64,000 bases of DNA, taken from assembly GCA_902573465.1 (NCBI GenBank), contig CACGJX010000004.1:1-64000 (forward strand), in the 5' to 3' direction. A program made the position numbers and the translations under genes. This document shows, one piece after another, positions 51,468 to 59,062 of the stretch (the stretch's first letter is position 1; every line of letters begins with the position of its first letter). Origin of the DNA: an uncultured Pelagibacteraceae bacterium (GTDB lineage: Bacteria; Pseudomonadota; Alphaproteobacteria; Pelagibacterales; Pelagibacteraceae). The notes beneath the pieces are model-generated. The model was not told the origin of the DNA and ran no database searches. It saw nothing but the letters and a program-made list of their open reading frames with translations.

Positions 51468-51471
51468 TTTA

Positions 51472-51531
51472 CTCCTTTTTTAGTGCTTTAGCATTATGCA
51501 AGGCGCACAATATAGTTCAAATACCTACCGA
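51472..51531 (-). promoter_or_regulatory. SAM-V-like riboswitch overlapping the metY ribosome binding site
   Basis: Minus strand GGTAGGTATTTGAACTATATTGTGCGCCTTGCATAATGCTAAAGCACTAAAAAAGGAG closely resembles the SAM-V consensus as I remember it; P1 AGGU/GCCU; 3' pseudoknot strand merges into the AAAAAAGGAG RBS 4-5 nt before ATG. Confidence 0.82.
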
Positions 51532-51545
51532 TTATGTATAATGAT

Positions 51546-55979: not shown

Positions 55980-56831
55980 ATGAAGGCTATCATCTTTAAT
56001 CTTTTGGCCTGGGTAATGCTTCCAATAATGGATGGATTTGCAAAATATTTAAGTGCAGATCTTCCTGTATTACAAATTACATGGGCTAGATATTTTTTTA
56101 CAGTCGCCTTTACTCTTCCATTTATGTTTTTCTTTTTTCGAAAAAATCTAGTTTGGACAGAAAAACCAAAATTACAATTTATTAGAGGATTAATACTTTT
56201 AACTGCGAACATTTGTTTTTTTTATGCAATATCAGTTATTTCTCTTGCAAAAGCATTAACCTTGGCTTTTGTTGCACCTTTAATTGTTACAGCTTTTTCT
56301 CCAATTTTTTTAGGAGAAAAAGTTGGTTTTAGAAGATGGTCTGCTGTAATTATTGGATTTATAGGTTCATTAGTAGTTATAAGACCTGGTTTTGTGGAAA
56401 TTAACTTAGCTAGTATAGCGGCTCTTGGAACCGGAATAATGTATGGTTTCTATTTAATTATTACTCGTAAATTAAGTGTTTCAGACAACCCTTTATTAAC
56501 TCTATTGTTAACAGGTGTAGTAGGGGCCATAATCGTTTCTTTAGTAATGCCATTTGTTTGGGTTAAGCCCACTTTAAATCAGTGGTCCATGATGGCTGCA
56601 ATTGGTATATTTGCCTGTATAGGGCATTTATTTTTAATATTATCACTTAAATATGCTGATGCTTCTAAATTAGCTCCATTTAGCTATTTTGAGATCATTA
56701 CAAATATCATTATAGGTTATTATTTCTTTAGTGATTTTCCTGATAATTGGACTTTCTTAGGATTATTTATTATTGTATTAAGTGGTATCTATATTTCTAG
56801 GAGAGAGAACATAGTTAAAAAAGTTAAATAA
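55980..56831 (+). CDS. DMT-superfamily (EamA) transporter
   Basis: Two EamA repeats, 10 TM; ALTLAFVAPLIVTAFSPIFLGEKVGFRRW. Confidence 0.88.
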   Translation: MKAIIFNLLAWVMLPIMDGFAKYLSADLPVLQITWARYFFTVAFTLPFMFFFFRKNLVWTEKPKLQFIRGLILLTANICFFYAISVISLAKALTLAFVAPLIVTAFSPIFLGEKVGFRRWSAVIIGFIGSLVVIRPGFVEINLASIAALGTGIMYGFYLIITRKLSVSDNPLLTLLLTGVVGAIIVSLVMPFVWVKPTLNQWSMMAAIGIFACIGHLFLILSLKYADASKLAPFSYFEIITNIIIGYYFFSDFPDNWTFLGLFIIVLSGIYISRRENIVKKVK

Positions 56832-56858
56832 TAGGTATTATTTATTTACTAATACCTA
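56832..56858. repeat. 9-bp perfect inverted repeat (TAGGTATTA / TAATACCTA), possible terminator or boundary hairpin
   Basis: Arms 56832-56840 and 56850-56858, 9-nt loop, directly after the DMT stop codon. Confidence 0.7.
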
Positions 56859-57099
56859 AAGTATTACTTTAATTATACTATGTAAACTATTGTATTTATT
56901 AGATATTTATATAATATAAATTTTTAAGATAAGTTAACTAAAACTGATTTTATTTAATTAAAAAAAAATTATTTTTAGCTAAATTTGTAAAATTTGTATC
57001 CAAATCTTAAAAATATTAAATTATCATTAAAAATCAAGGCATTTTGGACATCAGGAAAATTAAAATCATGAATAAATAGGGTGGTCTAAAAGCGTTGAT

Positions 57100-57213
57100 A
57101 TAGTTGAATAGTAGAGCGATGCACTAATTGAATATGCCTTTTAAACGTCCATAGAGGGGTCAATTTTTAGTGCAGGCTTATATTTGGTACAACTGAAGGG
57201 TGAATTCAACTAT
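57100..57213 (+). ncRNA. Candidate structured RNA (unknown family)
   Basis: Nested helices ATAGTTGAAT/ATTCAACTAT, AGC/GCT, TGCACTAA/TTAGTGCA, TTGA/TCAA; no ORF; terminator-like hairpin 14 nt downstream. Confidence 0.45.
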
Positions 57214-57226
57214 TTTGCTAATACAA

Positions 57227-57267
57227 AACTAAAATCATTAAAAAACGTTGATTTTATTAGTTTTTTT
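57227..57267 (+). terminator. Putative intrinsic terminator
   Basis: AACT+AAAATCA / TGATTTT+(ATT bulge)+AGTT stem followed by TTTTT. Confidence 0.45.
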
Positions 57268-57292
57268 AAGACAAAAAAGGCGTAGTATAACC

Positions 57293-57568
57293 CTAAATAG
57301 CTGCTTTTTCAGATCTTAGTAATTTAAGCTTTTTCTTGGTTCCACCTATTCCAGAGTAACCTCCAAGCCCTCCATCTGACCTAATTACCCTATGACATGG
57401 TATTTTAGGGGCATATGGGTTTTTAGCACAGGCATTAGCTACAGCTCTAGCTGATTTAGGGCTTTTTATACCAATAGCCACCTGTTTATAGGTTTTTACC
57501 TTACCTTTTTGAATGGTTTTGAGATATTTCCAAACTTTTAATTGAAATTTTGTGCCTTTAAGTTTCAT
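57293..57568 (-). CDS. ogt: Minimal methylated-DNA--protein-cysteine methyltransferase (C-terminal catalytic domain only)
   Basis: 91 aa; [38 protein letters not shown]-like; active-site PCHRVI present. Confidence 0.88.
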   Translation of the reverse strand: [91 protein letters not shown]

Positions 57569-57576
57569 TATTGGCT

Positions 57577-57757
57577 AAAAACCCCTGTTTCCTTGCACTT
57601 TTAAGGGTGCAAAGAACAGTTGTTTTGGCACGTCGTTGATGCGCTACCGCCATGCCTCCCGCTCCACATGTTCAGCGATGCTTTGTGAAGCTTTCTGCCC
57701 CCTGGAATTGTACCTCTCGGTTTTTCTCCAATTGGCCAGTTAAGAGTTGCCTCTTAA
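57577..57757 (-). ncRNA. Candidate structured RNA / ogt leader (unknown family)
   Basis: GC-rich block with seven consecutive local helices (two with GNRA tetraloops) ending in a 13-bp hairpin followed by GGGTTTTT, immediately upstream of the ogt ATG. Confidence 0.55.
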
Positions 57758-57852
57758 TTCATAATTAACATAACAAATAATGATTTTTAAATGTATCACT
57801 TTTTAGGTGATTCTTTAATTCTTCCTACTTTCTTGTGAATAGTGGGGATAAA

Positions 57853-58105: not shown

Positions 58106-59062
58106 TTGATGAATAAATTAATAACAGACGTTAAAAGCTTAGAAATAGAAACTCTAAAAAATTTGAAAAATTCTAAGGCCGGAAATACATTGAGAGCTTA
58201 TCAATCCGATTTTAAAGATTTTTCATTATTTTGTAACAAAAATGGTTTTACATCTTTGCCAACACAGCCAAAAATTATTGCTTTATATATAACCAACCTT
58301 TCAAAAACTTCAAAATTTAGTACTTTAAAAAGAAGAATTGCTTCTATAAGCGTAATTCATAAACTTAAAGGTCATTATTTAGATACAAAACATCCAATAA
58401 TTACGGAAAACCTTCATGGTATTAAAAGAACTTTAGGGTCAAGACAACAAGCAAAAAAACCGATATTAATCAATGATTTAAAATTAATAATTAAAGCTAT
58501 AGATGAAGAAAAAAACAAAACTAAAAGTTTTGTAGAAAGCAAAGTTAAAGCAATTTCGAAATTAAGAGACAAAGCATTAATATTAGTTGGGTTTGCCGGT
58601 GGATTTAGACGATCAGAACTAGTCAATATTGATTATGAAGACATAGAATTTGTAAATGAAGGTGTAAAAATACTAATAAGAAGATCAAAAACAGACCAAT
58701 CAGGAGAGGGAATTATTAAAGCTATCCCCTATTTTGATAATAAAGAATTTTGTCCAGTTAAAGCACTTAAAGAATTTATAGAATTAAAATTTGCTAAAAC
58801 TAATAAAGGTAAAATTTTTGAAGTTTCAGATAAATTAGTTGCTTTAATAATAAAAAAATATACTCAAAAAGCAGGTTTAGACTCCTCTAAATACGCAGGT
58901 CATAGTTTAAGATCAGGTTTTGCAACAACTGCAGCTGAATTTGGTGCTGAAGAAAGATATATAATGGCCATGACAGGACATAAAACAAATCAAATGGTTA
59001 GAAGATATATTCATGAGGCAAATTTATTTAAAAACAACGCATTAAACAAAATTAAGATCTAA
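58106..59062 (+). CDS. Tyrosine recombinase / phage-type integrase
   Basis: N-terminal SAM-like core-binding domain; GGFRRSELVNI, SKYAGHSLRSGFATTAAEFG, MAMTGHKTNQMVRRYIH (R...HxxR...H...Y). Confidence 0.93.
   Translation: MMNKLITDVKSLEIETLKNLKNSKAGNTLRAYQSDFKDFSLFCNKNGFTSLPTQPKIIALYITNLSKTSKFSTLKRRIASISVIHKLKGHYLDTKHPIITENLHGIKRTLGSRQQAKKPILINDLKLIIKAIDEEKNKTKSFVESKVKAISKLRDKALILVGFAGGFRRSELVNIDYEDIEFVNEGVKILIRRSKTDQSGEGIIKAIPYFDNKEFCPVKALKEFIELKFAKTNKGKIFEVSDKLVALIIKKYTQKAGLDSSKYAGHSLRSGFATTAAEFGAEERYIMAMTGHKTNQMVRRYIHEANLFKNNALNKIKI

Follow-up and report, generated by a model that had tools for sequence, protein, structure and literature searches.

A conserved single-copy intergenic element of SAR11 bacteria is probably a mostly unfolded small RNA rather than a 6S-like RNA

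The gap between an EamA/DMT transporter gene and ogt in a SAR11 genome holds a real conserved element, which we analysed in the window (the whole stretch of DNA under study, 64,000 nucleotides) and in its relatives. We show that the element is conserved, does not code for protein, keeps a fixed internal spacing, occurs in single copy, persists independently of its neighbours and has no conserved structure; the structure named for it in a preliminary description is not there. The element is probably a small RNA, uncharacterised and largely without folds, and not a 6S-like RNA; a DNA site is possible. With moderate confidence we favour a plus-strand gene for a noncoding RNA that is specific to the Pelagibacteraceae (SAR11) lineage, mostly unstructured and independent of Hfq, and for this candidate RNA we infer transcription, strand, ends, action in trans and a partner. 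Of the overall reading in the preliminary description, a conserved non-protein-coding element, probably plus-transcribed and ending at a hairpin, is retained, and a structured or 6S-like RNA is given up.

A sequence-only model recovered the element, almost always as one copy, from 218 of 298 genomes in the order. The genera that carry it are three of the 11 sampled (g1, g7 and g8), all belonging to one family, and a more sensitive search of five genomes of another family returned nothing significant. At the DNA level, about 40 of 100 same-genus genomes gave long matches with 67-95% identity. A pattern scan of GTDB genomes yielded at least 120 stretches; among the matches listed, all were from SAR11 except one (L097), which failed the profile check. 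The genome itself has no second strong match, and IMG/VR gave 0 matches, on which ground a viral origin was rejected. Rfam scans, at the gathering threshold and at E up to 10, produced nothing credible on the element, and no description of it was found in the literature searched.

Across 133 homologues, column conservation was 0.82-0.94 over 57095-57163 and 57185-57204 vs 0.56-0.62 just upstream, climbing at the -10-like box and the presumed transcript start (Table 1). The words TGCA, GAATAT, TTTAAACG and ACAACTgAAGGGTGAA are near-invariant; within block 1, TG, GAATAT and TTTAAACG are invariant in alignment A1. The spacing is equally rigid: GAATAT lies 60 bases from RCAACY in 168/169 sequences, despite variable letters in between, and 112 +/- 1 bases from an AAAA..RTTG motif at the hairpin in 135 of the 140 sequences where that motif was found (113 in g8). 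The distance from the element to the DMT stop is variable (sd 36). Because SAR11 genomes are streamlined and their spacers short, strong selection is likely on this block of ~100 bases, which has hardly changed across three genera.

Table 1 Features of the locus and parts of the element (positions in the window).
Feature	Position	Strand	Remarks
SAM-V riboswitch	51469-51535	-	RF01826, 85.8 bits; adjoins rplM
EamA/DMT transporter gene	55980-56831	+	Ends at 56831
Inverted repeat TAGGTATTA...TAATACCTA	56831-56861	+	Directly after the DMT stop
Extended -10-like box TTGATATAGT (TGnTAtnnT), supposed promoter	57095-57104	+	Overlaps the claimed outer 5' arm
Conserved block 1, tAGAGcgaTGCActaatTGAATATrccwTTTAAACGnccatagaGgGgtc	57112-57163	+	From alignments of 133 and 70 homologues
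Variable spacer, fixed length	57164-57184	+	Conservation down to about 0.68-0.78
Conserved block 2, ttTGGTACAACTgAAGGGTGAA	57185-57204	+	Column conservation 0.91-0.94 (133 homologues)
Variable linker, near-fixed length	57205-57240	+	Conservation about 0.60-0.75
A/U-rich hairpin and T run, supposed terminator, probably bidirectional	57227-57267	+	Between the element and the convergent gene
ogt, alkyltransferase-type	57293-57568	-	PF01035; 3' end at 57293
IMES-2 RNA	57625-57764	-	RF02035, 145.6 bits; just upstream of ogt
Tyrosine recombinase gene	58106-59062	+	PF00589

The element does not follow either of its neighbours. In the main set, DMT was found upstream in 124/126 loci and ogt downstream in 144/150. 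No DMT gene was found at the g7 and g8 loci, and 6 of the 7 g8 loci also lack ogt, a different minus-strand gene converging on the element there; the element is kept in all these settings. Since it persists without DMT or ogt, it is no leader or tail of either gene. The inverted repeat behind the transporter gene is probably the end of that gene's own transcript, separating DMT from the element. Block 2 was seen in g1 and g7 and not recognised in g8, whose elements (L203-L206, L208-L210) carry a CTAATAGACYGCATAAAACC-like sequence instead. In some of them (L208: ATGCAGTAT/ATACTGCAT) this sequence has the potential to pair with block 1, which may point to a structure specific to the lineage.

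As an RNA gene, the element would be transcribed from the extended -10 box, with a start at about 57111-57113, where the conserved block begins. Transcription would end around 57267, at the A/U hairpin with its T run, and the predicted transcript would cover about 57112-57267 (~155 bases). Such an RNA would act in trans and without Hfq, by way of the two conserved linear blocks, whose distance is fixed and which may work by short base pairing or as a protein landing site. The T and G at 57096-57097, the T and A at 57099-57100 and the T at 57105 are each at least 90% conserved among 70 diverse homologues, and in many representatives of the genus the box recurs with an unchanged offset. The hairpin separates the element, on the plus strand, from the convergent gene on the minus strand, an arrangement that fits an independent plus transcript. 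This terminator-like hairpin had been pointed out in the preliminary description; it is indeed present and, with its T run, recurs in variable form among homologues, but its stem consists of A/U pairs alone and looks almost the same on either strand, and a consensus scan (GC-based for terminators) called neither a promoter nor a terminator at the element. Several observations argue against an RNA gene. No helix covaries convincingly; the promoter match is weak, has no canonical -35 in the consensus scan and is not kept in g7/g8; and no target emerged, a second strong match in the own genome, rRNA pairing and a maintained pairing with IMES-2 all being absent (rRNA complementarity did not rise above shuffle level).

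The main rival, which we consider unlikely yet worth serious attention, is a single-copy site acting at the DNA level, i.e., a multi-site protein-binding, recombination or nucleoid element whose blocks are protein-binding sites in helical phase. Rigid spacing across variable sequence, together with the lack of RNA structure, is what such an architecture would leave. Positions 57088-57117 and 57241-57270 show an in-register direct similarity at a shift of 153 bp (0.52 vs 0.30 +/- 0.06 at other shifts, 133 homologues), which the DNA-site reading would take, like the spacing, as a reflection of DNA architecture, although its locus-specific concertedness is weak (p 0.04) and it is weak in g8; concerted direct repeats are for the former reason not put forward as a main claim. 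Two loci (L058 and L129) have near-perfect copies of the repeat, but in other letters. The tyrosine recombinase gene, conserved downstream of the element in nearly all loci examined and 0.7-2.2 kb away in most, would also suit a recombination site. Minus-strand glycosyltransferase-like genes follow it in the window, and this stretch is possibly the edge of a variable region. By contrast, the -10-like box on the left and the flanking hairpin with its T run look more like parts of a transcription unit. The element has no protein-coding gene in a position to be driven by it, and there are neither DnaA boxes nor an informative skew switch here. A replication origin was rejected on the latter two grounds.

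We regard it as rather doubtful that the family-wide SAR11 element is a new kind of regulatory RNA free of structure, or else a phased protein-DNA site. If true, this would mean that an element with no conserved fold has withstood streamlining in one of the ocean's most abundant bacterial groups.

Less probable is a minus-strand small RNA or antisense transcript bearing the C-rich seeds UUCACCCUUCAGUUGUACC and GACCCCUCUAUGG. C-rich unpaired words are typical small-RNA seeds for ribosome-binding sites. Homologues fold marginally better on the minus strand (mean z over 57112-57267 of -0.5 vs -0.1 on the plus strand), and the invariant GAATAT reads there as a -10-like TATATT in many homologues. 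Such a transcript would nonetheless leave the element upstream of 57074, where no hairpin terminator was seen, and, to cover the whole element, its promoter would need to sit within the hairpin that the element and the convergent gene have in common.

Translation, too, could in principle account for fixed distances. The preliminary description had noted the lack of a long ORF in the DMT-ogt gap (56832-57292, 461 bases), and this is borne out, with no ORF of at least 40 aa. Stops interrupt all three plus-strand frames in 133/133 homologues, and the element is not protein-coding. A micro-ORF, with an SD-like AAGG in block 2, an ATG ~8 bases on and ~14 codons to the TGA of CGTTGA, would agree with the rigid spacing, and some homologues read like M-L-F-R-R-K-S-R-K-K-V-K-K-G-stop. 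We consider it very improbable: a start codon is found at the position in just 52/164 sequences, the frame is open in 75/164, and both start and frame are broken in the window. With the plus frames interrupted throughout and the micro-ORF not conserved, protein coding was rejected as the cause of the fixed spacing.

The reading that fares worst is the one first put forward, a structured, 6S-like RNA built from nested helices. Every repeat quoted for it is where it was reported, and the window sequence alone folds as drawn, a little better than chance (-38.8 kcal/mol on the plus strand, z -2.03, with 8/200 shuffles as good; z -1.54 on the minus strand). The helices are not conserved, however, across 70 diverse homologues, in which the 25 pairs drawn are standard pairs in 64.1% of cells vs 64.0% in shuffles and the outer helix is paired in 61.3% of cells. 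RNAalifold predicted 0 pairs on the homologue alignment. Systematic searches with column-permuted nulls gave no convincing conserved helix on either strand; the best helix scores equalled these nulls or exceeded them slightly, and were strand-ambiguous and confounded with clade structure. Folds of the subclades (g7, g8 and a mixed set) had no structure in common between them. Comparative folding thus shows the helices broken without compensation, the outcome that the preliminary description had itself named as refuting, and the claim of a structured RNA with nested helices falls; as they are not kept in homologues, the drawn fold is confined to this genome and those closest to it. Moreover, the outer 5' arm overlaps what is likely an extended -10 box and for that reason is probably outside the transcript. 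This case warns against structured-RNA calls from a single A+T-rich sequence.

In keeping with the preliminary description, which reported no sequence match to 6S RNA, an Rfam search including RF00013 gave none: nothing was found in the region at E 10, in the own genome, or over the cut-off in 61 same-genus genomes. The element resembles 6S RNA in being a single-copy intergenic RNA candidate whose window sequence can be drawn as stem-bubble-stem, and differs in having no model match and no conserved closing stem, bubble or apical stem. That RF00013 detects no 6S RNA elsewhere in these genomes counts in favour of a 6S-like RNA; with helices at the shuffled rate, a homologue fold z of about 0, the outer arm overlapping a promoter-like box and no match even at E 10, we hold this reading, refuted in the form in which it was drawn, to be next to impossible. 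While controls were positive, no recognisable 6S RNA was found in the 61 genomes of the genus and no Hfq in 16 genomes of the order; in SAR11 they have either been lost outright or diverged strongly.

IMES-2 is, like the element, a marine intergenic RNA, ~350 bases away in the same locus; it fits its structured model, whereas the element does not. This metagenome-derived RNA family is present at 90 loci carrying the element and was not found in the element-bearing g7/g8 loci, and its genomic position looks fixed. A pairing of the element with IMES-2 (AGCGATGC with GCATCGCT) was rejected, as it is not maintained over the 90 loci.

One relative's homologue lies at 999,912-1,000,023, within a 608-base gap of 22.5% GC, in a genome that we take to be HTCC1062. 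Being without covariation and in a low-GC gap, the element would be missed by structure-based surveys. The candidate RNAs of Meyer et al. 2009 (PMC2704228) came from intergenic regions of 'Cand. P. ubique' that are long and rich in GC, with a GC limit of roughly 26%, above the GC content of the relative's gap. They share with the element the kind of locus and the organism group, but none of the regions listed there matches it (PMC2704228).

The absence of Hfq (PF17209) from 16/16 genomes of the order, with positive controls, makes an Hfq-dependent small RNA unlikely. With the Hfq-independent small RNAs of bacteria, the element shares an intergenic, non-protein-coding, single-copy nature and promoter-like and terminator-like ends, and it differs from them in being largely structure-free and fixed in its spacing. 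It is, as such, a candidate for small-RNA regulation in a group whose genomes, as searched here, yielded no Hfq and no recognisable 6S RNA.
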